A stretch of DNA of 38,692 nucleotides from a virus. The stretch's first letter is position 1, and each line of letters starts with the position of its first letter. Position numbers and translations under genes: made by a program. The DNA is taken from IMG/VR virus record IMGVR_UViG_3300043411_001628, positions 1 to 38,692 of that record, one strand, 5' to 3'. The notes beneath the pieces are model-generated. The model was not told the origin of the DNA and did not search any database. It worked only from the letters and a program-made list of their open reading frames with translations. Positions 3,995 through 37,400 of this stretch are shown here, in pieces.

Positions 3995-4960
3995 ATGAAA
4001 ACCGTCAAACAAGTCATTTTTGGTTTCATTGTCGCAGCAATGCTGATCATTCTTTCAGGTTGTGCCACGACAGAGAAAATTTTTGGTAAAAAGGCATCGG
4101 CTGAGGCTGACGCCAAGGCCAGTGTAGTAAATGTCGAAACTCTGTTGGGGGCTAACTTAAAAGAAAAGTTGGAACAGGTGGCCAATATTTCGTATGGTGT
4201 GGGATATGCGTTGGGGAAAGAAGCAAATCCCTCTCAAGCCGTTGAAATTGCAAAGGAATTGAATTCGAGGGCTGCGTCTCTTACTGGGGCTCCAACACTG
4301 GAAGAGATGAAGAAAATGAAGCAAATGATTGATGATTTGACTTCGGAACTGGCCACAGAACGAGAACGTGGATCAAAAGCGTTGGAGAATAAAGATTCGG
4401 AGATTTATGGGTTACAACTTAAGTCCAAACTTCTTGTCGAAGCCAAGGACAAAGAAATCCAAAAATACATGAAACTGTCACAGGACACGGCTCTAAAAGC
4501 CGATGCCATGCAATCAAAGTTGGATGATATGAATAGCTTTTTTGGTTTTGGTGCAATTTGGTATGGGCTCAAAAAGTTCGTGATTAGTATGTCATGGATT
4601 ATCGGCATTGGGTCTATTATTTATCTTGTTCTTCGCTTCGCATCGATGTCCAACCCATTGGCCGCATCGATTTTTTCGATTTTTGATACCATCATGAGTT
4701 GGTGCGTAAATATGATCAAGGTACTCGCTCCCAAGGCTCTTGAAGTCGCAGGTCAAACGGCAACACGGGTTGCGAATGGCTATCGGGATGCCATGACTAA
4801 GATGATCGATAATATCGAGGCTCTCAAAGAGATGCAAAAACGAGATCCATCGAAAAAATTTACCATTGATGAGTTTTTGGATGAACTTTCCAAATCTCTG
4901 GATACCACTGAAAAAGCTATGGTAGACAAAATTAAGCGAGATATTGGATACACCGGTTAA
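3995..4960 (+). CDS. Lipoprotein-like membrane protein with coiled coil
   Basis: 321 residues. The N-terminus is a signal peptide with a lipobox, LSGC, placing the modified cysteine at residue 23, so it should be an exported lipoprotein in a Gram-negative host. Residues about 95-180 are charged and coiled-coil-like (KMKQMIDDLTSELATERE). A second hydrophobic segment at about 190-215 (ISMSWIIGIGSIIYLVLRF) and a weaker one near 225-245 follow, then an amphipathic charged tail. A lipid anchor plus coiled coil plus transmembrane segment could fit a spanin-like or superinfection-exclusion protein; neither is proven. Confidence 0.7.
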   Translation: MKTVKQVIFGFIVAAMLIILSGCATTEKIFGKKASAEADAKASVVNVETLLGANLKEKLEQVANISYGVGYALGKEANPSQAVEIAKELNSRAASLTGAPTLEEMKKMKQMIDDLTSELATERERGSKALENKDSEIYGLQLKSKLLVEAKDKEIQKYMKLSQDTALKADAMQSKLDDMNSFFGFGAIWYGLKKFVISMSWIIGIGSIIYLVLRFASMSNPLAASIFSIFDTIMSWCVNMIKVLAPKALEVAGQTATRVANGYRDAMTKMIDNIEALKEMQKRDPSKKFTIDEFLDELSKSLDTTEKAMVDKIKRDIGYTG

Positions 4961-4968
4961 TATTTATA
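4961..4968 (+). promoter_or_regulatory. TATTTATA motif before the 4972 start
   Basis: TATTTATA immediately follows the previous stop codon and ends 3 nt before the ATG at 4972. It is one of six such placements in the window. Confidence 0.4.
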
Positions 4969-4971
4969 CCC

Positions 4972-5598
4972 ATGACCAAATACGATCTTGAACGGCTTGT
5001 AATGGAATGTCTGACTGATTATGTATCAGATGTCTCACGCAAACCGTCGAAACCAGTTAAGGAAAACACCATGAAGAAATCTGAACTCAAAGCCCTTGTG
5101 AATGAAGTCGTTCGCCAGTGCGTGCAAGAAGCGGGACCTCAATATAAGGTCCGTGGCAAGAAATCACAACTCGAACAACCGGGCCAACGTAATAAAGCCC
5201 GAGAAATTCAAAGCGATCCTCAAATCAATGAAGATTTTGGTGCTGAATTTGGGGCCGAGGGCGGCGATGAAGGAGGTGCTGAATTTGGTGGAGCGGGTGG
5301 TGAAGAGAAAAGTGAAGTTGAACTTCTGAAACAGATGGCTCAAATTCTTCTCAAGTTGCTCCAGATGCATCGTGGCGAAAGCCCCGTAGACAACATGGGT
5401 GACGAGGATGAGTCTCCAGAGGCTCCAGAGGCTCCAGAGGCTCCAGAAGCATCCCAAGACGCTCCAGAGGCATCTGAGGATGACGAAGAGGAATTGCAAG
5501 AGTCTAACCACAAGGTTCAGGTTCGTTCTTATAAGACCGTTAAGGATCTTCCGAACGATCCCAAGAACGTTCGAGACCCCGAAGTTCCACAGTCATAA
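4972..5598 (+). CDS. Acidic Gly/Pro/Ala-rich protein with PEA repeats
   Basis: 208 residues, low complexity apart from the N-terminus. Two short amphipathic helices open it: KYDLERLVMECLTDYV and KSELKALVNEVVRQCVQE; the second resembles a helix in the 2306 product. Then come a Gly/Glu-rich stretch, a hydrophobic helix ELLKQMAQILLKLLQMH and four PEA repeats encoded by tandem 9-bp units around 5415-5452. No enzyme motif is present. It might be a scaffold-like or minor virion protein, by composition and position only. Confidence 0.65.
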   Translation: MTKYDLERLVMECLTDYVSDVSRKPSKPVKENTMKKSELKALVNEVVRQCVQEAGPQYKVRGKKSQLEQPGQRNKAREIQSDPQINEDFGAEFGAEGGDEGGAEFGGAGGEEKSEVELLKQMAQILLKLLQMHRGESPVDNMGDEDESPEAPEAPEAPEASQDAPEASEDDEEELQESNHKVQVRSYKTVKDLPNDPKNVRDPEVPQS

Positions 5599-18096: not shown

Positions 18097-19212
18097 CTAT
18101 TTCTTTAAGCATTGATACAGGAGTTTTTTTTCCTGTTCAGCCGTCAGCGGCTTAGAGTCCAGAAGCGCAAACACAAATGATGCTCGGTTCGTGTTGCCAT
18201 ATGAAGACAACACCCGTTCCGCTTGTTCACGTCGAGTTTTCATAGGTTTAAGCGTCTCATCTACAAACACTTTCATGCCTTCTATGATTTTTTGAACGTC
18301 TTTATACGCATCACAAATTCGAGACGCTTCTGGACGAACTTGTTGCCACAACTCATAGTCGAACATGTCGGTAATGTACTTTTCAAACTCTTGATATGAC
18401 GGCGTACCTTGAGAAAAATAAACATCGACGACTTTATCTATCGACGCCAGAGCTTCCTTCATACGGTGCAGAGCGAGATACCAGAGACCCTTGACCTTGT
18501 GGATGCGTTGTCCATCCTTGGAATAGACACAGACCCCTTCCTTGCCCTTCCATTGCTCCACATCAGCCATGAGAGCTTCCACGGATGGAAAGTCATAAGT
18601 GACTGGCCGCTTGAATCCCGTTTTGTCAGCAAGGCCATCAAGCATTTCTTGTGACGAAACGCTATAGTCGGTGTGCCCCACGGCACCAACAAAATACCAC
18701 TCTGGCGCATCGCCATAGTTCAAGATGATCCGGTTTTCCGGAGACACCCATTCAAACAAGTAGGAAATCAACCAAGTGTCCTTGGGAACGTTGCAAGTTA
18801 CCTCAATAAACTCAACCAGTTTTGGCAAATAATCCCGCTTGAACACTTCAATTTCGTAACCGTTGTCCAGCTTGGAGGCATCTACGGTACCACGAGTACG
18901 CAGGATATAGTTGCCCTTATACTTGGACACAATCAAGAGAGAGCCATCGATCTTTTCGACGATGGTCGCATTCTTGAGTGATTGCGGCACAGGGAAATTT
19001 TCAGGGTTTTCGCCCCAGTTGGTGAACTTTGGAAAACCAGCAGACACGAGTTCGCCTTCGTCATTCCACACTGAGGAACGAAAATGCTTGTTCTCCTGAA
19101 CCCATTTACAACCAATGTGTTGCGGCTGAATAAGCCACAAGGTTTCACCATTCACCACATGCGGGTGAACCATGAATTGTTCTTGGTCGATGGCATTTAA
19201 GTCAATTTTCAT
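18097..19212 (-). CDS. RNA ligase, T4 Rnl1 type
   Basis: 371 residues (T4 Rnl1 has 374). I place the start at 19212, MKIDLN; the open frame runs to 19242 but that part lies in the promoter. Nucleotidyltransferase motifs in order: I EKIDGSLL with Lys87 as the AMP-accepting residue, III YLFEWVSPENR near 151-161, IV KEGVCVY near 224-230, V HKVKGLWY near 238-245; the C-terminal helical domain follows. The enzyme joins 5'-phosphate and 3'-OH RNA ends; T4 Rnl1 heals tRNA cut by host anticodon nuclease. Here the kinase that would prepare ends is encoded 3.5 kb away. Confidence 0.9.
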   Translation of the reverse strand: MKIDLNAIDQEQFMVHPHVVNGETLWLIQPQHIGCKWVQENKHFRSSVWNDEGELVSAGFPKFTNWGENPENFPVPQSLKNATIVEKIDGSLLIVSKYKGNYILRTRGTVDASKLDNGYEIEVFKRDYLPKLVEFIEVTCNVPKDTWLISYLFEWVSPENRIILNYGDAPEWYFVGAVGHTDYSVSSQEMLDGLADKTGFKRPVTYDFPSVEALMADVEQWKGKEGVCVYSKDGQRIHKVKGLWYLALHRMKEALASIDKVVDVYFSQGTPSYQEFEKYITDMFDYELWQQVRPEASRICDAYKDVQKIIEGMKVFVDETLKPMKTRREQAERVLSSYGNTNRASFVFALLDSKPLTAEQEKKLLYQCLKK

Positions 19213-19221
19213 TTGAGAGAG

Positions 19222-19249
19222 AGTATATGGAGTTTCGGCCAATTGTCAA
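19222..19249 (-). promoter_or_regulatory. Sigma70-like promoter for the Rnl1-type ligase
   Basis: Minus strand TTGACA, 16-nt spacer, TATACT; 9 nt to the ATG at 19212. It fixes the ligase start. Confidence 0.8.
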
Positions 19250-20646: not shown

Positions 20647-20674
20647 ATTATACGACTGGAATGAAAAAAGTCAA
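20647..20674 (-). promoter_or_regulatory. Sigma70-like promoter giving a leaderless mRNA
   Basis: Minus strand TTGACT, 16-nt spacer, TATAAT; only 7 nt to the ATG at 20639. The -35 box overlaps the stop region of the cREC gene. Confidence 0.88.
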
Positions 20675-21090
20675 GGGGAATCTTTGAATGCGTCTCGGAT
20701 TTGAATGAAACGAGCTAAATGGTTGTGAATGTTCATTCTCCCGACAGAGTTAAAGGAATGGACGTAATAATCGGGCAACTCCTTCTCGTTCGTGACACAG
20801 TAGTTGACCAGCCATTTGGCGCAATCATACCCGGTTTTTTCGGTATATTTGGTGTAATCAATCGGAACCAGCATTGCCTCGAAGTTTTCGGGGTAATGTT
20901 CCATGGACAAATCATGATCGAACGAAATGACGGAAGGGAGTCCATTTTTGAGAATGAACTCCGTAAACGCTGCATACGAGCGCACGATTTCCCATGACCA
21001 TATCGACGGAAACTCCACCCATGCACCATCATGCATGGCGTGGGTTACGTTGGATGGCTTACGAATGTCGTCGAGGAAGAGCTTGCTCAC
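20671..21090 (-). CDS. cREC-type cyclic-phosphate processing receiver-domain protein
   Basis: 139 residues. Shows the derived receiver fold signatures of the cREC_REC family: LFLDDIRKP at residues 4-12 with the paired Asp, VISFDHDL near 74-81, KTGYDCAKWLV near 105-115 and YVHSFNSVGRMNI near 128 of the strand-helix end. The family is proposed to act on cyclic or terminal phosphates in RNA-repair contexts; activity is predicted, not shown here. Its ATG overlaps the stop of an RNA ligase gene (ATGA), so the two are translated together, fitting 2',3'-cyclic phosphate opening before ligation. Confidence 0.8.
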   Translation of the reverse strand: MSKLFLDDIRKPSNVTHAMHDGAWVEFPSIWSWEIVRSYAAFTEFILKNGLPSVISFDHDLSMEHYPENFEAMLVPIDYTKYTEKTGYDCAKWLVNYCVTNEKELPDYYVHSFNSVGRMNIHNHLARFIQIRDAFKDSP

Positions 21091-22100
21091 TCGGCATCCT
21101 TATAGTTTTCACTGATGATTTTGCCTGACCATTCCTTTTGCAGAACGGTGCTACGCAGTGGCCATTGTGAACGAATGACAATGCCCTCAGCGGGCTCGCC
21201 ATTCGGATACTTCAATGAGTTTGCCATCTTGAGCAAAGACTCCAGATTGTAAAGAAACTTATCGCCCATTTCAATCAAAGAGACCATGGGAATTGCGGTT
21301 TCATTGCAAAAATCTCGGAGTTGTACGAATGTAGCATACGTCCGAACATCAATGAATTGGATGCTGAACAAATGCAGTTCGTGCTTGGTCAAGCCAAGAT
21401 TGTTTCCATTAACTCCCGGCCCAACAACCTCACCTTGAATGGCAATGTCTTGCTCACCGTAGTATTTCTTGATCTTATTCTCAATGTCATACTGACGGGC
21501 CAGCTTCCAAAACAAGTTGTTCTCGTCTTCGGCAAGTTGAAGGTTTCGGCTGCAAACGCCAAAGACTCCCTTATGCACAAAAAACGTACCAGAGCTACCA
21601 TCGTCCTTGCGAGTGATGTAATACTCACGGTTCTTCAATTCATCTAATGCGAATGGATTGCTTCGAAGATTTTCCTCATCGGTTTTGATGATGAAACTTG
21701 GGAGATAGCCGAGAGCCTTACCCGAAAGAGCAGCCGAAAGCGGTTTCTCATAATGTTTGGCTCCAATGGTCTCGCTTACGTCCACGCCGGGCATGAAAGG
21801 TCCACGCATGTCATAGCCGAATTTTCCCAAGGTATCAATGGGCAGGCACAATCCGTTGGACGCTTCGCCACGGAGACGAATTGGACGTACTCGAAAATGT
21901 TTGGTTCGCAAAAACTCAAAATCGGCGTGCTCTGGAAGTACAGAATCAATTTCTACATAGATGATCAAATCTCCGTCCTTATAATCGTTTTGGGTATGGT
22001 TAAAAATAACCTGCCAGCCCAACACCGTCCCGATGGATAGGGTATCGGCGTTCGGATGCTTTTTGATGTTTGTGATTCGTTGAATTGATGCAACACTCAT
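21087..22100 (-). CDS. RNA ligase, DRB0094/Rnl5 family
   Basis: 337 residues, close to Deinococcus DraRnl (342). Unlike Rnl1 it has an N-terminal OB-like domain (residues 1-120: SIQRITNIKKHPNADTLSIG). Motif I RKDDGSSGT gives nucleophile Lys165; III IQGEVVGPGVNG near 221-232; IV EGIVIR at 305-310; V SGKIIS at 325-330. DraRnl seals 3'-OH/5'-P RNA nicks, including where the 3' side is RNA and the template is DNA. It heads a two-gene operon with cREC; the leader has AAAAAGG before the ATG. Confidence 0.9.
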   Translation of the reverse strand: MSVASIQRITNIKKHPNADTLSIGTVLGWQVIFNHTQNDYKDGDLIIYVEIDSVLPEHADFEFLRTKHFRVRPIRLRGEASNGLCLPIDTLGKFGYDMRGPFMPGVDVSETIGAKHYEKPLSAALSGKALGYLPSFIIKTDEENLRSNPFALDELKNREYYITRKDDGSSGTFFVHKGVFGVCSRNLQLAEDENNLFWKLARQYDIENKIKKYYGEQDIAIQGEVVGPGVNGNNLGLTKHELHLFSIQFIDVRTYATFVQLRDFCNETAIPMVSLIEMGDKFLYNLESLLKMANSLKYPNGEPAEGIVIRSQWPLRSTVLQKEWSGKIISENYKDAE

Positions 22101-22279: not shown

Positions 22280-23983
22280 TTACTTTTGCTTGTAATCTTT
22301 GCGTCCCGCTCGATACCCGTCGCAGTAACCCGTCATGAACTGCTTTTCTTCTTTAACGGTAATATCGGTTTCATAATATTTTCGTTTGCGACGGCGAACC
22401 CCATTCCGGAGACCCAATTGGTAGCCCTCTTGATAAGTAGTATTGTCGTTTGATTTTACTTCGGTCTCACCCAAAACATCATTGAGATTTTTTTCGAGCT
22501 TATGGACGATGGGACCAAACTCCCGTTCAAATGCTGTTGATGCCGTTCGGAAAGTCGGTGGCAAAACCAAATCCTGAACCAGACTAATCGTCTGCCCCAC
22601 AGTAAAAGCCTTTTCAGCTTTCTCATCTGGAATTTCGATTCTAAACTCCGCTTCGAGTCCCATCGCCAATTCAACGGTATCCAGCGAATCAGCGCCGAGA
22701 TCCCGCATCAAGTCTTGGTCATCATGGATGTCGTTGATGCTTCGATCCAGTTGTTCAGAAATGACGGTCACAACTCGCTGGCGAATATCCAGATGAACGA
22801 CGGTCTCTTGACCCTTGGCCGCATTTTCGGCTCGGGAGATTTCAACCACATTATCCTTTTCGACTGGCGTACCAAAGCAGGTTGGTGTTGGCGTATAGCC
22901 ATCGGCAGGTTCGTTGTCAGGTGGTGGAAGTGAACCCTCCTTCTTCATTTGCTCATACAACCATGCCTCGTTGTCTCGTTGCTGCCGTTCAGCAGGAGAT
23001 TCTGAGGGTTGGAGATAGCCAACGCATTCCGTCGACCCACAATCGGGATCATGAGCGGTGCAATCACAGTAAGGTCCCGAAAGAACATCACATTCGCAAT
23101 CGACGGTATCCATTCCGCATTCATCGCAAATGTCATTGTCATTGTCATCATCGTTCTCACTCAAATCCTCTGGGCGATAAAAATGAACTGGTTTAGCCGA
23201 GTAATCCGATGTGAAGGTATCGGGCAGGGGTCCATCGTATAGGCCAAGTACCTTGTATTTTGCACAGCGCAACTTGGTACAATTGCAATCCTCCGGAACT
23301 GATACCACGCCAGCGGGATCAATTTCAATCAGGATGATGATGCCATCGTGAGTACGAGCCCAGTCACGGGCATAGGACAAAGAACCAGCGTGTAAACCAC
23401 CGGAGCAGTGTTTTCGAAAATCATCATCCACGTAAGAACGATCCATTTCAATGACTTCCCCCACCCCGTTGAAAATTTGCCCCGTTTCATTGCGTCGGCC
23501 AGAAATCAGTGGTTCTTGTCCAGAGGATACCGAAAAGAAATCCTTCTGCACCCCTTTGTAGGCCAGAATCATACCGTCCGGGGTGAGCGGCATTTCCTTG
23601 TGCTCCAAGAAGCTGTACATCTCATTGATGGCACGACGGGAAGGATTGGCGAGCTTGCGTACCATGTAGTTGGCAAGAGAGTCGTAAGAAATCTTCTCTC
23701 GGAGATACCCCATGATGCGGTCCACATCCACGCCAACTAATTGCTGATCACGGTAGAAGACCCCTTGGTCGGTGACGCTCAGACCGCCTTTGCTCCAACG
23801 TTCCACGACTCGTTTCAGACTGAGCAAATCGAGCAATTCCTCGAAATGGCCGGTGGTCCATGCCGCCACAATTTCTGGCCATTTTGGGTGGTCGGAGGTT
23901 GCGGGAATGGGCTTGATAAGACCGTTATCATTCACCAGAATGGTGATTGTGTTGTTTGACTTTGTGGCTGTGACTACATTCAT
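22280..23983 (-). CDS. rIIB: rIIB-like protein with embedded acyl carrier protein domain
   Basis: 567 residues (T4 rIIB has 312). Residues 1-275 look like the rIIB core (YDSLANYMVRKLANPSRR; PDGMILAYKGV; RSYVDDDFRKHCSGGLHAGS). Residues 276-330 are acidic and cysteine-rich (CDECGMDTVDCECD; CDCTAHDPDCGSTEC), likely metal binding. Residues about 399-473 are an acyl carrier protein: DLGADSLDTVEL with Ser433 as the phosphopantetheine attachment site, then EAEFRIEIPDEKAEKAFTV. The 95-residue tail has two GYxxGxRxG-like units. It follows rIIA, with its own promoter overlapping the rIIA stop. No ACP synthase is seen; host AcpS could modify it. Confidence 0.85.
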   Translation of the reverse strand: MNVVTATKSNNTITILVNDNGLIKPIPATSDHPKWPEIVAAWTTGHFEELLDLLSLKRVVERWSKGGLSVTDQGVFYRDQQLVGVDVDRIMGYLREKISYDSLANYMVRKLANPSRRAINEMYSFLEHKEMPLTPDGMILAYKGVQKDFFSVSSGQEPLISGRRNETGQIFNGVGEVIEMDRSYVDDDFRKHCSGGLHAGSLSYARDWARTHDGIIILIEIDPAGVVSVPEDCNCTKLRCAKYKVLGLYDGPLPDTFTSDYSAKPVHFYRPEDLSENDDDNDNDICDECGMDTVDCECDVLSGPYCDCTAHDPDCGSTECVGYLQPSESPAERQQRDNEAWLYEQMKKEGSLPPPDNEPADGYTPTPTCFGTPVEKDNVVEISRAENAAKGQETVVHLDIRQRVVTVISEQLDRSINDIHDDQDLMRDLGADSLDTVELAMGLEAEFRIEIPDEKAEKAFTVGQTISLVQDLVLPPTFRTASTAFEREFGPIVHKLEKNLNDVLGETEVKSNDNTTYQEGYQLGLRNGVRRRKRKYYETDITVKEEKQFMTGYCDGYRAGRKDYKQK

Positions 23984-23995
23984 AGTTTGATCCTT

Positions 23996-24023
23996 ATTAT
24001 ACGGAGACTTCCTGAGAAGTCAA
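23996..24023 (-). promoter_or_regulatory. Sigma70-like promoter for rIIB
   Basis: Minus strand TTGACT, 16-nt spacer, TATAAT, inside the last codons of rIIA; AAGGA lies 8 nt before the rIIB ATG. Confidence 0.85.
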
Positions 24024-26342
24024 GAGGTTTCTTTTGGCCTGCAACGACTCCACGTATTCAATGAGAGCTTTGAGCTTTTTTGAGTCCATGTCAGCATCAT
24101 CGCCACAGATACCCATATATTTGAACAGCGGGAACTTAGCCATCACCGCTTCATTTAAAGCCGCATAGTCGGGTTTCGTTCCAAGAGTGAAGTTTGATTC
24201 GGCCAAACCAAACATGCGTTGAGCCGTTTGTAGATCGTCGAAGTCGGTTGGTTCACCACCGAGAGCTTCGACATAGGCGTTCAGTTCAGGAGACGATTCA
24301 CTGAGGGTATTCGCAATGGCTAAAGCCCACGGATAGGTCAGCAATTCAGTGGTATCGTCGTTGGCGCAAAATGTTTGAAAGGTAGCTTGTTTCCGCATGG
24401 TCGGCGTAACATACACGTCTCCATTTTCTTTCAAATATTCGCCCGCTTCGGTCCAGAGCCCATCGGCTTTGGCTTTCACAAACCACTTGGCTTCCAACTT
24501 TCCTTCGGGAATGAGATAAATACGGTCCAAGTTCATGTCGGCATATTTTGCCAAATCCTGCAAGGCCGAGGTCGTACGGTCCAGTTCTCGGTTGTATCCA
24601 CCGATGCGAATATTTTTGCGGAAATAGGAGGCATAGACGCCACCCTCTTCCAAATCACGGAGAGACACTTCGGATTCTTCGATAGAACCAGATGTCACGT
24701 CGATGTACCGAAGGAGGGCCGTGCCCCCGCCACCGCCACCGTCGCCATTACGAGAATAGGATTTTCGATTTGCTTTCTGCCATGCCTTAATGTCGTCGAG
24801 AACCGTTGACAGCATGGTGTATTCGGCAGTCTCGAAATGATAGTGATCGAAAAACGCCTGACGTTGAGCATCATCGGAAAACCGCAACAGATGTAGTTTA
24901 TGGACGTTGAAACTCTCATTCAACAGGTAGTAACGAGCAATCGTTTGCATCATGCTCACGTTACGACCATCGATGACAATCACTTTGACGCCGTTGAATG
25001 GCGTAATGCGATTGTGTTCTGTTCCCGTGCAGCGAAGGCGCTTGACTTGCTTTTTCTTGCGTTTATATGATACCAAACAAGGTGTGGTTGGGTCGCTCAA
25101 CTCTTCAAGAAATCCGGTGGGGTAATTGACATCCCATTGATTCATTCGTGTAAAAGAAGGACTGTTCATTTCGATGTTGTTCCAGAACAAACGTCCTTTG
25201 AACATCGATTCCAGACGATAGAAATCACCATCCAGAATTTTGAGAGCCTTGTTGGTGTCAATGGATTCACCATCTTCCCGGTCACCAACATTTTTACCAA
25301 ACAAAGCCAAGTAAATTCGCTTGGCTTCCCAAATGGTCTTGGCTCCCGCAAACTTGGTGATAATCGCCTGCTCCAATGTGGTAAAGATTTCCTCGATTTT
25401 GCTTTCGAGATTGGCGTAGGTGGTATCGGTGTACTCCAACTCTTCCCGGTTAATCGTGAACTTCAACGAACCAATCGGAAACTGGAGAACCACTTCGTTT
25501 GATTGAAGGATTTCCGTGAAAATGCGCTTCTGAGGCGTCAGCGCCATCTTGGAGCGAAGCATCTGCCAGTCAATTGGATATGCCACTTGACCCATGACAG
25601 CTACGCTGCGGGCACTGTAACCGTAGGAACTGGAGTTCGGGCGGATTTCCCAACCGTTGCCAGAAAGAAACGCTTCGGTATTGCGCCAGCGGTTCATGCG
25701 AGTTAATTCCGTTTCGTCCATGTTGACGATGGTCGGAAGAACAACCCAATACTTGAAAAAATCAGCCGCTTTGGAATGAATGGTATTCAGGTCGCTGACC
25801 TTGATTGGCACGGCAACTTCAATACCCGTTCGGTCACCCTCGACCATCGGCACTTCGGACATGCGGAGAACGTCACCTTCCTTGTGATCGTCACCTTTGA
25901 TGATGTTGTAGATAGACTGGACACCATTAACCCACGATGTCACTATAAAAGAATCTCCGTAGCCCATGGCACTTTTGCAGCCCAATCCAAGCATCCCGTT
26001 GAGGTCGTTGGAGTTACGCTTGGTGCTTTCTCCGAGAATGCAATAAACATCACGGATTTGTTCCATTGTAAGGCCAGTTCCAATATCACGAACTCGAAGA
26101 GTAGGGTCTTTGAGAGTTGGGAGCGTAATTTGAACTGCGTTGATGGGAAGGCGGTTAACAATATGAGCATCGCTTGCATTGGTGCTATATTCTCGTATAA
26201 TAGCCATTGCCTTGTCTTTATAAATACGATCCGTAACGGCATTTATAAGGAACGGAATGTTTTTGGAAGTTACGGTGATTCTCCCAATCGAGTTCACGTT
26301 TCCAACGGATTCGATTGTTTGAGTATTGTCGATAGGTGTCAT
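23997..26342 (-). CDS. rIIA: rIIA-like GHKL ATPase
   Basis: 781 residues from the ATG at 26342 (T4 rIIA has 725). The open frame starts at 26384, but its -10 box lies inside that extension, so 26342 is preferred. The GHKL/Hsp90-type ATP site is intact: REYSTNASDAH at 50-60 (N box, Glu51, Asn55, Asp58), VRDIGTGL at 84-91 (G1) and MLGLGCKSAMGYGD at 117-130 (G2 region). A Gly-rich linker near residue 540 precedes the C-terminal half. rIIA and rIIB act together at the membrane during infection in T4 and protect against RexAB exclusion. Confidence 0.9.
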   Translation of the reverse strand: MTPIDNTQTIESVGNVNSIGRITVTSKNIPFLINAVTDRIYKDKAMAIIREYSTNASDAHIVNRLPINAVQITLPTLKDPTLRVRDIGTGLTMEQIRDVYCILGESTKRNSNDLNGMLGLGCKSAMGYGDSFIVTSWVNGVQSIYNIIKGDDHKEGDVLRMSEVPMVEGDRTGIEVAVPIKVSDLNTIHSKAADFFKYWVVLPTIVNMDETELTRMNRWRNTEAFLSGNGWEIRPNSSSYGYSARSVAVMGQVAYPIDWQMLRSKMALTPQKRIFTEILQSNEVVLQFPIGSLKFTINREELEYTDTTYANLESKIEEIFTTLEQAIITKFAGAKTIWEAKRIYLALFGKNVGDREDGESIDTNKALKILDGDFYRLESMFKGRLFWNNIEMNSPSFTRMNQWDVNYPTGFLEELSDPTTPCLVSYKRKKKQVKRLRCTGTEHNRITPFNGVKVIVIDGRNVSMMQTIARYYLLNESFNVHKLHLLRFSDDAQRQAFFDHYHFETAEYTMLSTVLDDIKAWQKANRKSYSRNGDGGGGGGTALLRYIDVTSGSIEESEVSLRDLEEGGVYASYFRKNIRIGGYNRELDRTTSALQDLAKYADMNLDRIYLIPEGKLEAKWFVKAKADGLWTEAGEYLKENGDVYVTPTMRKQATFQTFCANDDTTELLTYPWALAIANTLSESSPELNAYVEALGGEPTDFDDLQTAQRMFGLAESNFTLGTKPDYAALNEAVMAKFPLFKYMGICGDDADMDSKKLKALIEYVESLQAKRNLLTSQEVSV

Positions 26343-26373
26343 AATAGCGTTCTTGTTTATTCTAACTTCGACT

Positions 26374-26401
26374 ATGATATGCATCTTTTAGAAAAAGTCA
26401 A
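26374..26401 (-). promoter_or_regulatory. Sigma70-like promoter for rIIA
   Basis: Minus strand TTGACT, 16-nt spacer, TATCAT; 31 nt to the ATG at 26342. The -35 box overlaps the stop of the GIY-YIG gene. Confidence 0.8.
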
Positions 26402-27327
26402 CACCTTTTTGTGAGAATCCAATTTTTATGACTTTTTCTTGTTCCTGTTTTGAGTTGGCTGACGCTTCCACGATTTAGGTTGTGTTTTGTAATGAATTCG
26501 TGTCCAGTTCCAGTAAATGTTTCATCGGTGATGAGATGCTTGAAGGTGTATATGTTGTGATCATACGCTGGGTTGAGACTTCCCGCAGACTTTCCTCGTT
26601 GAGATTGGCTCATTTTTTCTCTGGACTCTGGGGTGAATGTTTTACCCAATCGTGGATGACTATGTGTTTTGAAATAAGATTTTTGACTTAAACTCATTCT
26701 TTTTCGAGATTTTTCGGTATGAGATTTGCCATGAAACGGATTTTTAACCCCAATTCTGGTAGAAGCGTGGTCGCTCATGCGAGTTTTGGCCTTTGTCGTA
26801 TGATGTTTTCCAAAGAAGTGATTCTTTTCTCCGATGCGGCCAATGGACATTCGTTGCCTAGTTTCATTGCTAATGATAAGTTTCTGTGTGGATTGGGCTA
26901 CCAAATTATAACCCTTACCGTGGTCGGATAAGGTATTATATTTTTTGATATAATCCGATTCTTTCAGAAGAAAATCCAATTCCTTAATGTTATTACACTC
27001 TTCCAATAAGTCAACGAAAAAGTTTTGTTTTCCATATTTTCGAATGGCAGCATGAAGAATTGAGTTGCATCGGCGCTTAGTATTGGCATCCCAGATATGT
27101 TCATTAAATCGAACCAGAACGTTTCTGGTTGTGACACCAACATATCGTTTGTTATTTATCTTATTTGTTATCAGATAAACGAACCCCTTTGCGATAAGCG
27201 GTTCGTTTCCGTTTTCGTTCAGCATCAATGTTGGAGTTGTAATATCGACGCTGGCGCTCGGCGTTTTTCCGTCGAACTTCTTCGAGAGTGAGATTTTCTT
27301 TTTTGGTTGGCATACTTGATTTGTCAT
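26398..27327 (-). CDS. GIY-YIG homing endonuclease with NUMOD3 repeats
   Basis: Open frame of 309 residues. The GIY-YIG domain starts near residue 48: GFVYLITNKINNKRYVGVTT, with Arg in RFNEHIW and the Glu in the later helix (LLEECNNIKELD). After it come four NUMOD3-type DNA-binding repeats, e.g. GEKNHFFGKHHTTKAKTRMS, GVKNPFHGKSHTEKSRKRMS and GKTFTPESREKMSQS, and a C-terminal HTH-like segment. The first 34 codons overlap a different small basic ORF, so the start may be the ATG at 27225. Located next to rIIA. Confidence 0.88.
   Translation of the reverse strand: MTNQVCQPKKKISLSKKFDGKTPSASVDITTPTLMLNENGNEPLIAKGFVYLITNKINNKRYVGVTTRNVLVRFNEHIWDANTKRRCNSILHAAIRKYGKQNFFVDLLEECNNIKELDFLLKESDYIKKYNTLSDHGKGYNLVAQSTQKLIISNETRQRMSIGRIGEKNHFFGKHHTTKAKTRMSDHASTRIGVKNPFHGKSHTEKSRKRMSLSQKSYFKTHSHPRLGKTFTPESREKMSQSQRGKSAGSLNPAYDHNIYTFKHLITDETFTGTGHEFITKHNLNRGSVSQLKTGTRKSHKNWILTKRC
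27161..27313 (-). CDS. Small basic peptide (RYYNS type) overlapping the GIY-YIG gene
   Basis: 50 residues from the ATG at 27313: MPTKKENLTLEEVRRKN, then RQRRYYNSNIDAERKRKR. It resembles the 14918-15082 peptide in charge, order and the YYNS core, and likewise sits on the 5' end of a homing endonuclease frame. An open extension to 27349 precedes the TATTTATA element. Confidence 0.5.
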   Translation of the reverse strand: MPTKKENLTLEEVRRKNAERQRRYYNSNIDAERKRKRTAYRKGVRLSDNK

Positions 27328-34506: not shown

Positions 34507-34752
34507 ATGCAGATTACTACCAAGTTCAATGTCGGTGACAGTGTGGTGTTTCTTCACAACAATGCATTTCGTCGGAAGGAAATCGCCAAGATTGCAATCG
34601 AGGTCAATACTTACACCACGCCTCCCACCCCCATTATCACGTACTTTTTCAAGGATATGGTTCGGAGCCAGTATAACTCCGAGGTTTACAAATACGAAAC
34701 CGAGATCGCCCCTTCCAAAGCGGAATTGGCGGAACTCATGCACGAATCATAA
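34507..34752 (+). CDS. Hypothetical protein with SH3/KOW-like start, 81 aa
   Basis: The opening KFNVGDSVVFLHNN resembles small SH3-like barrels used for binding; a basic strand and an acidic helical tail follow. First gene of the sirtuin operon; its TAA overlaps the sirtuin ATG. Confidence 0.65.
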   Translation: MQITTKFNVGDSVVFLHNNAFRRKEIAKIAIEVNTYTTPPTPIITYFFKDMVRSQYNSEVYKYETEIAPSKAELAELMHES

Positions 34753-35504
34753 TGGACAAGCAATCACAACTTTTGGAATTCGTCAAGGCGTCTAAGTTCG
34801 CCTTGGTGTTCACTGGTGCTGGTGTCTCTACCGAGAGCGGCATCCCCGACTTCCGTTCATCTTCGGGCATCTATTCAGCGAAATACGAAAACAAGTCCCC
34901 CGAACAGATTTTGAGTCTCCGGACGTTCCGAGAGAACAAACCATTGTTTTTTCGGTTCTACATTGATCGCATTGGAAACATTGTGGACAAGCAACCTAAT
35001 CGTGCCCACGTTGCCATCAAAGAGTTGGTTGACCGTGGTATTGTCAAAGCGGTGTTGACTCAGAACATTGACAATTTACATGAAAAAGCCGGGACGAAGC
35101 ATGTCATTGATTTGCACGGGAACAGTTCAGTGTTTCGTTGTACGAGTGCCTGTGGCTACAAGACCGATTACGCCACGGTAGTTAAATTGTTGAATGAAAC
35201 CAAGGGGTATCCAGTGTGTCCTGACTGTCAAGGCGTGGTACGTCCCAACACTGTCTTGTTCGATGAGAATTTGAGCGATGATGCCTACGATACTGCATTC
35301 TTTCTTTGTAAAAAAGCCGATTTGATGATTGCTATTGGATCTTCTCTGGTGGTTACTCCGGCGTGTCGTTTAGTGGATGAAATTCCAGTTGACGCCAAGT
35401 TGGTCATCATCAATCGAGACACGACTCCGTATGACTCAAAGGCAGATTTGGTTATTCAAGAGAATTGTGGTGAAGTAATGGAAAATCTTGTAAAAAATTT
35501 ATGA
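34752..35504 (+). CDS. Sirtuin (Sir2-family NAD-dependent deacylase)
   Basis: 250 residues with all sirtuin motifs: FTGAGVSTESGIPDFRSS near 20-37 (NAD binding), TQNIDNLH near 99, catalytic His in DLHGNSS near 120, zinc Cys pairs CTSACGY and CPDCQG, GSSLVVTPA near 197 and IINRD near 216. This is a catalytically complete zinc sirtuin, unlike the zinc-less SIR2 NADases of Thoeris or DSR defences. It removes acyl groups from lysine using NAD, making O-acyl-ADP-ribose and nicotinamide. Co-transcribed with Thg1-like and EF-Ts genes. Confidence 0.93.
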   Translation: MDKQSQLLEFVKASKFALVFTGAGVSTESGIPDFRSSSGIYSAKYENKSPEQILSLRTFRENKPLFFRFYIDRIGNIVDKQPNRAHVAIKELVDRGIVKAVLTQNIDNLHEKAGTKHVIDLHGNSSVFRCTSACGYKTDYATVVKLLNETKGYPVCPDCQGVVRPNTVLFDENLSDDAYDTAFFLCKKADLMIAIGSSLVVTPACRLVDEIPVDAKLVIINRDTTPYDSKADLVIQENCGEVMENLVKNL

Positions 35505-35659: not shown

Positions 35660-35865
35660 CCGAAGCCCAAAGGATGTACGAAGATTACGGCGGCTGTTCC
35701 TGTCATAGTCATCCGCCATGTTCTTTTTGTATGGCTTTGACCGAAGAAGAAGCCGATGTTATTTGGAACGGGAGTATGCAAGATTTGATGAAATATTGGC
35801 GTGAACAGTCACTAATACCAGTCTTGGAAAAAAGCCAGTGGGTAACAATTTACAACTATGAATGA
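35656..35865 (+). CDS. Small Cys/His-rich protein, 69 aa
   Basis: Start at 35656 (MTEAQRM); the open frame runs back to 35584 over the membrane gene. CSCHSHPPCSFC near residues 14-25 gives up to six zinc ligands; the rest is helical and acidic with several Trp. Overlaps the Thg1-like gene by 8 nt. Confidence 0.62.
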   Translation: MTEAQRMYEDYGGCSCHSHPPCSFCMALTEEEADVIWNGSMQDLMKYWREQSLIPVLEKSQWVTIYNYE

Positions 35866-36658
35866 TGCACTTGGAGATAGAATGAAAAGCCAGTACGAAA
35901 ATCGTACTCGTTACATGCTGCCCCGCCGTACCTATACCCTTTTGCGTCTCGACGGAAAAGCGTTTCATACCTACACGAATGGGCTCAGGCGTCCCTTTGA
36001 TGCTGATCTTATTGCCGATATGGATTCGGCTATTATCGCCATGCTCCCTGAACTTCAAGGTGCGGTATTTGCTTATACGCAATCTGATGAAATCTCAGTG
36101 CTTTTAACCGACTTTGCCACACCCAATACCTCGGCGTGGTTTGATGGGAACTTGCAGAAAATGGTTTCTGTGGCTTCCAGCATTATGACTGCGGAGTTTA
36201 ACCTGAAAAGAATCAATCGTCAACTCACAGAGAAGAATCAATTTTATGATCCGACGATGGCCTATTTTGATTGCCGAGCGTTTACCATTCCTGATAGAAC
36301 GGAAGTGATGAACTACTTCCGTTTTCGACAGCAGGATTGCATTCGTAACTCTGTATCCATGGTGGCTCAATCGAACTTCTCCCACAAGGAACTTCACGGG
36401 AAGAGTCAATCGGACATGCATGAAATGTTGCATCAGAAGGGTGTCAATTGGGCCACGGGCTTCTCCGATGGGGAGAAGAATGGACGATTGATTGTTAAAG
36501 AAACATTCACGGTTAATTCTGTCATGTTTCCCGGAACGTTGGAGCAAGATAATGCGGCAACGTATAATGCATCCCGTACCAAATGGGTTGCCAAAGGCGC
36601 ATGGGTATTGACTCAAGACGAAGGTAAACTCCTTGGTATGATTCCGAAGTATGAATAG
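35858..36658 (+). CDS. Thg1-like 3'-5' RNA polymerase (tRNA-His guanylyltransferase family)
   Basis: 266 residues. Family motifs: LLRLDGKAFHTYTNG near 28-42 with metal-binding Asp32, RPFDADL, and FAYTQSDEISVLL near 71-83 with Asp77-Glu78 matching the catalytic carboxylates of Thg1; later YFDCRAF, RQQDCIRNSVSM, and a KEL/LHGKS segment. Eukaryotic Thg1 adds G-1 to tRNA-His; bacterial, archaeal and phage Thg1-like proteins mainly repair 5'-truncated tRNAs by templated 3'-5' addition. That would fit the RNA-end-repair genes at 12.8-22.1 kb. ATG at 35882 is an alternative start. Confidence 0.92.
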   Translation: MNDALGDRMKSQYENRTRYMLPRRTYTLLRLDGKAFHTYTNGLRRPFDADLIADMDSAIIAMLPELQGAVFAYTQSDEISVLLTDFATPNTSAWFDGNLQKMVSVASSIMTAEFNLKRINRQLTEKNQFYDPTMAYFDCRAFTIPDRTEVMNYFRFRQQDCIRNSVSMVAQSNFSHKELHGKSQSDMHEMLHQKGVNWATGFSDGEKNGRLIVKETFTVNSVMFPGTLEQDNAATYNASRTKWVAKGAWVLTQDEGKLLGMIPKYE

Positions 36659-36812: not shown

Positions 36813-37400
36813 ATGGAAAACTATATTGAACAGTGTAAGGTGGTCAGGCGTTTAACGCTTGCTCCGATGAACAAGATTGCTGCTGCATTGCAGGAGTCTA
36901 AGGGTGATATTGATGCGGCAGTGGCATTGCTGGTGAAGCAAAATGCGGCTGATGTCAATGAAATGGCCAACCGAGTCACGAATACCGACGTGGTGTATAG
37001 CTACGTCCACAACAACCGAGTGGGAGCAATGATCGTGATTGCCTGTCAGACGGATTTCGTGGCGAAGAACGAGACGTTCCTTAATCTGGCAAAGGACATT
37101 TGTATGCATATCGTGTCTGCGCCGATAGCCCCGAAGTATATTGATAGGGCTCATGCCTCCGAGAACCTTTATCTCGCCGTTGAGCTTGACTATCGGTTGG
37201 CATGTAAAGACAAGCCCCCGCAAATCGTGGACAAAATTGTTGCGGGAAAGATGCAAAAGTGGCTGGCCGAACATTGTCTTATTCATCAGCCATTCATCAA
37301 GGATGACAAGATGACGGTCAAGCAACTCATTGAATCGATTTCGGCTAAAATGGGAGAGAAGATCGAAGTGAAGCGGTTTGTCAAGATGGTGGCAGCATGA
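36813..37400 (+). CDS. tsf: Translation elongation factor Ts
   Basis: 195 residues, the length of short bacterial EF-Ts such as that of Thermus, not the 283 of E. coli. UBA-like N-terminus LTLAPMNKIAAALQESKGDI, then the signature core MIVIACQTDFVAKNETF near 70-88, and a C-terminal KMQKWLAEHCLIHQPFIKDD with VKRFVKM as in cellular proteins. EF-Ts exchanges GDP for GTP on EF-Tu; it is also a subunit of RNA-phage replicase. Some residues differ from cellular forms (UBA LTLAPMN for TGAGMMD). Inferred role: tuning or hijacking host EF-Tu. Confidence 0.9.
   Translation: MENYIEQCKVVRRLTLAPMNKIAAALQESKGDIDAAVALLVKQNAADVNEMANRVTNTDVVYSYVHNNRVGAMIVIACQTDFVAKNETFLNLAKDICMHIVSAPIAPKYIDRAHASENLYLAVELDYRLACKDKPPQIVDKIVAGKMQKWLAEHCLIHQPFIKDDKMTVKQLIESISAKMGEKIEVKRFVKMVAA

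Follow-up and report, generated by a model that had tools for sequence, protein, structure and literature searches.

An acyl carrier protein domain is embedded in rIIB-like proteins of several phage lineages

Introduction

Few phage loci have been studied as intensively as rII, although to our knowledge the molecular action of rIIA and rIIB is still to be explained. T4-type rIIB (PHROG 609 and 11221) forms with rIIA a pair associated with lysis inhibition and with activity against RexAB. RexAB acts by depolarising the membrane, and divergent rII pairs give phages protection against it (PMC11879866); according to a genomic review, rIIB may be a transcription factor (PMC7824862). Acyl carrier proteins (ACPs), in turn, are called rare in phages (PMC7760394). 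Those of PHROG 5934, found in Serratia phiMAM1, Cronobacter GAP32 and Caulobacter CcrRogue, are standalone products of small separate genes, and their role is unknown. Here we describe a gene of the linear viral record IMGVR_UViG_3300043411_001628, in which a phage-encoded ACP is, unlike in these phages, joined to rIIB. The gene content of the whole stretch of 38,692 bp, hereafter called the window, makes it probable that it is only part of a larger phage.

The rIIB-like protein and its ACP domain

A single unbroken open reading frame of 567 amino acids (aa) occupies positions 22280–23983 of the window on the minus strand, as do all its parts described below. Residues 1–250 (23234–23983) make up the rIIB core: PHROG 609 matches residues 6–246 with E=8e-51, and the core modelled alone by AlphaFold reached a predicted local distance difference test (pLDDT) value of 88, while a structure search of this model against PDB gave no significant match. 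It is followed by an acidic, Cys-rich and mostly disordered linker (residues 251–398, 22790–23233, pLDDT mostly <50), by the ACP domain (residues 399–473, 22565–22789) and by a C-terminal tail (residues 474–567, 22283–22564) composed of a long helix 476–504, a basic RRRKRK stretch and GY-rich helices. An earlier note, made from the letters of this DNA alone, had placed the ACP at exactly these residues between a Cys-rich acidic linker and a basic tail, and both flanks are present as it described them.

The identity of the domain was supported by several comparisons. The Pfam model PF00550 (PP-binding) matched residues 402–464 with E=4.5e-10 and 40.1 bits, well over the curated cut-off of 20.8 bits; PHROG family 5934 matched residues 399–471 (E=4e-16), and phmmer aligned residues 397–472 with bacterial ACPs from PDB (best E 4e-14). 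AlphaFold, supplied with an alignment of the window and viral-contig sequences only, predicted with confidence both the rIIB core and the four-helix ACP fold (400–412, 433–447, 453–458 and 462–473; pLDDT about 97), while segments with pLDDT <50 lie between the two. The DSL motif is present as DLGADSLD, and its Ser433 (codon 22685–22687), at which the second helix begins, aligns with Ser36 of Escherichia coli AcpP and is the predicted site of 4'-phosphopantetheine attachment. Thus, the 567-aa protein is an rIIB homologue with a genuine embedded ACP domain.

With the bacterial ACP of type II fatty-acid synthesis (AcpP) this domain shares 45% identity (E. coli), the DSL serine, the helix II surface and the predicted fold, but differs from it in being embedded in a phage protein, with a disordered linker before and a basic tail after it, and in two substitutions, E48A and D51R (AcpP numbering). 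With T4-type rIIB the protein shares the homologous core, the order behind rIIA and the presence of variable appendages. The rIIA homologue (795 aa, 23997–26384, minus strand; PHROG 612, E=2e-89) lies directly upstream, only 13 bp away, and a TAAGGA Shine-Dalgarno sequence precedes the rIIB ATG. No convincing internal start was found ahead of the window ACP. In the four fusions examined (see below) linker starts showed no consistent Shine-Dalgarno sequence, whereas the native rIIB starts do have one; separate translation of the ACP is therefore unlikely, and an internal start liberating the domain was rejected.

Other rIIB–ACP fusions

In a collection of 50,697 phage records 2570 matched the window protein, and no annotated record in the collection matched at least 80% of its 567 aa. 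ACP-like matches in these records corresponded either to separate genes of small size or to contigs lacking annotation, and none of the annotated matches to the ACP part was called rIIB. The domain was absent from the annotated phage rIIBs that were matched, as well as from 80 rIIB loci that a similarity search with the rIIB core retrieved from IMG/VR and whose C-termini varied (acidic, CxxC-rich, GY-rich, RDxxGRF and other extra domains). Neither the whole window protein nor rIIA, used as a single query against viral contigs, brought close relatives.

Further fusions were registered when the ACP itself guided the search. IMG/VR searched with the ACP alone gave two of them, L100 (840 aa) and L138 (452 aa), the latter with the domain order helix-turn-helix (HTH)–ACP–rIIB. 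Two more, L178 (rIIB, GY tail, ACP) and L265 (rIIB, ACP, tail), came from scans that were seeded on ACP patterns but used the whole protein for ranking, and a further scan on the helix II–III motif gave no additional fusion. Thus the search for other rIIB homologues with an ACP, suggested in the earlier note, brought four further contigs, all with architectures other than that of the window, which was seen once. The five fusions come from different datasets; the ACP follows rIIB in four of them and precedes it in one, and in L100, L138, L178 and L265 (4/4) the first long gene met upstream is rIIA. No paper describing an rIIB–ACP fusion was found in the library that was searched, in line with the statement of the earlier note that none was known. 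As far as our searches reach, the repeated combination is new, while its parts and fold are already known, and it would be the first described case of a phage ACP embedded in a counter-defence protein.

Two other candidates were rejected. For Vibrio EniLVp02 a fusion was suggested by tblastn coverage, but its protein has no ACP; L312 ranked high through its rIIB, and no ACP was found in the locus examined.

Appendages other than ACP are also shared between these proteins. As in the window, a Cys-rich acidic segment, possibly metal-binding, follows the rIIB core in Streptomyces phage Circinus (L007, 4905–6038) and in the rIIB of a 303-kb contig (L025, 3929–5293). A GY-rich tail like that of the window protein occurs in L025 and L178.

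ACP domains fused to other partners were observed as well. Two contigs of jumbo-phage size (L108, 257 kb, positions 4605–5444, and L110, 251 kb) encode a MazG-like pyrophosphohydrolase fused to an ACP domain, and a viral-contig protein of 408 aa and unknown family (L002, 24–1250) has an internal one. Altogether, recognisable multi-domain ACP proteins in the IMG/VR search ranked by ACP only comprised rIIB in two lineages, the MazG-like protein in one, L002 and possibly L139.

Probable repeated gain of the ACP domain

In a 48-row rIIB tree (INDEPENDENCE) the five fusions take different places. L100 groups with rIIBs of Schitoviridae, L138 with that of Acinetobacter phage nACB2 (100/99), and the window rIIB with a set including rIIBs that have Cys-rich linkers, while L265 forms a long branch of unsure position. 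A single clade of fused rIIBs was rejected by the approximately unbiased test (p=3e-7), and the starred, i.e. supported, branches require at least four changes. A first, smaller tree with four fusions required only two; we rely on the later one, to which the nearest relatives had been added. Alignments showed that for three fusions the nearest relatives possess the flanking parts but have no ACP in the corresponding linker (for L100 SABI, HN02 and Holyagarpour, for L138 nACB2 and for the window L025), and no PP-binding domain was found in eight nearest-relative records, G008 among them being only a 4.9-kb fragment. The case of L100 is illustrative: rIIBs of Schitoviridae (PHROG 2886) have the N-terminal region, the rIIB core and the C-terminal KKGW-type repeats in common with it, but lack the ACP that L100 has in the linker.

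Based on these comparisons, repeated gain of the ACP explains the data better than one ancient gain followed by many losses, because the domain sits on different sides of the rIIB core and of the GY tail. The tree of the ACP domains themselves did not reject a single clade for the four fusions then known (p=0.88), but with its 79 columns it does not distinguish a common origin of the captured ACPs from different donors. The earlier note had allowed for separate rIIB and ACP genes joined by an assembly error. Such a join is contradicted by the four contigs from other datasets, which carry fusions of other architectures in the same rIIA–rIIB setting, and is made very unlikely by the ACP-less nearest relatives of three fusions. 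The occurrence of such fusions in at least four further phages makes it probable that the ACP is of use to rIIB, which it may connect with the lipid or stress machinery of the host.

Possible role of the fused ACP

The five fused ACPs are only 32–47% identical to each other, and residues D35, S36, L37, D38, V40, E41, M44, E47, E53, I54, D56 and E60 (E. coli AcpP numbering) are kept in all five. Together with the serine, the helix II surface that AcpS and the partners of ACP recognise is kept. ACP binds SpoT and fatty-acid enzymes via helix II, including L42, V43 and M44 (PMC3340395). Exactly one PP-binding domain, the fused one, is present in each of the window, L100, L138, L178 and L265 records. 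The AcpS family (PF01648) was found neither in the window nor in the L178, L138 and L100 records (the record of L265 was not covered), and no PF01648 transferase was detected in the window record or five other records; host AcpS would therefore be needed for modification of the serine.

According to the explanation that we favour, with a probability of about 45%, rIIB has on several occasions taken up a host-type ACP, which would serve it as a modifiable arm for docking on ACP-binding proteins of the host or on the membrane-lipid machinery. The domain would have been gained in the flexible linker behind the rIIB core, and Ser433 would receive 4'-phosphopantetheine from host AcpS. In its holo or acyl form the ACP arm might then dock the rIIA–rIIB complex on host ACP-binding proteins, such as membrane acyl-transfer or fatty-acid enzymes, SpoT and similar partners, thereby placing it where membrane counter-defence is needed or enabling it to sense the acyl or (p)ppGpp status or to change it. 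In this case the ACP would be a targeting module that recurs between phages and belongs, with HTH domains, Cys-rich segments and GY-rich tails, to a set of interchangeable rIIB appendages. The most economical reading seems to be that of exchangeable targeting modules, among which the host-modified ACP guides the rII complex towards ACP partners located at the membrane or close to it. Tethering, titration of partners of the AcpS, SpoT or IscS type, and sensing of the fatty-acid state, which are the roles proposed in the earlier note, agree with the presence of an intact serine and partner-binding helix; the structural claim of the note was supported, while its functional part goes no further than this agreement. 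Acquisition of the same host module by rIIBs of unrelated phages may be regarded as a natural experiment that singles out acyl-ACP with its partners as a host pathway of interest, and the DSL serine offers a one-residue test of the link with the host pathway.

Several points weigh against this explanation. Phosphopantetheinylation of Ser433 and every partner are predictions from sequence. The window ACP has lost the acidic positions E48 and D51, which may contribute to partner binding. No rIIB was detected in the 257-kb contig with the MazG-like–ACP fusion, which means that rIIB is not alone in profiting from an ACP arm. Absence of AcpS or other ACP genes is weak evidence, given that the records may be incomplete. 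Finally, the pattern-seeded scans were ranked in favour of rIIB and bias its share among ACP fusions; the search with ACP alone is free of this bias, and there rIIB accounts for two of about five ACP fusions while being one gene among about 100 or more in phages of this size, which, as a rough argument, is above the expectation for random fusion.

Other explanations of the fusion are less probable. Without any acyl chemistry, an unmodified ACP fold may be used to bind proteins or as an acidic helical spacer of stable structure, comparable to the support that ACP subunits give to mitochondrial complex I. High variability of rIIB tails, which are often acidic and exchange several types of appendages, fits this possibility, as does the tolerance of ACP to terminal tagging (PMC3340395); we nevertheless find it doubtful, as a structural use needs no serine and all five fusions keep it together with the neighbouring AcpS-contact residues. 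The intact signature also fits a version in which the fused ACP drains AcpS, coenzyme A or acyl chains and so slows or redirects host lipid synthesis, with rIIB as a mere carrier or expression partner, and standalone phage ACPs have indeed been placed among auxiliary metabolic genes (PMC7760394). This version is unlikely: a small separate gene would be cheaper, most phage ACPs fetched are of this kind, and the repeated linkage to rIIB would be left unexplained.

Two further possibilities ascribe to the fusion a meaning that concerns rII itself. Ordinary rIIB might generally act through host ACP, recruiting it or an ACP-bound partner (SpoT, a membrane acyl-transfer enzyme) in trans, so that several lineages would have hard-wired this contact by fusion. 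We consider such a "Rosetta-stone" relationship quite unlikely; if true, it would mean that the decades-old rII function is bound up with membrane signalling by acyl-ACP or (p)ppGpp. Alternatively, the domain could be a decoy that mimics host ACP to bind and block an anti-phage factor using or monitoring ACP, or to be sensed in its place. Such a decoy would suit the counter-defence role of rII, diverse pairs of which act against RexAB (PMC11879866), and repeated gain in unrelated phages suggests selection, but our analysis brought up no defence system that has ACP as a partner, and PADLOC gave no matches for these proteins; the decoy is rather improbable. A chance, nearly neutral fusion, or a product of assembly or gene calling, could be suspected from the single occurrence of the exact window architecture; it is very improbable in view of five contigs from different datasets, differently arranged and each beside rIIA, with the ACP signature intact and the fold predicted at high confidence.

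Neighbouring genes of the window

Upstream of rIIA the window contains a GIY-YIG/NUMOD3 homing endonuclease gene adjoining it (26398–27327, minus strand). On the plus strand a homologue of elongation factor Ts is encoded at 36813–37400 (PF00889, E=2.6e-24; no PHROG match), and genes of a Sir2-family protein (34752–35504) and a homologue of the tRNA-His guanylyltransferase Thg1 (35858–36658) lie close together. On the minus strand two different RNA ligases (18097–19242 and 21087–22100) stand on either side of a cluster of small genes, and a protein with a cREC_REC receiver-like domain is encoded at 20671–21090 (PF20274, E=5e-20). The second of these ligases comes after the rIIB–ACP gene, and in Xanthomonas phage XacN1 an RNA ligase likewise follows rIIB.
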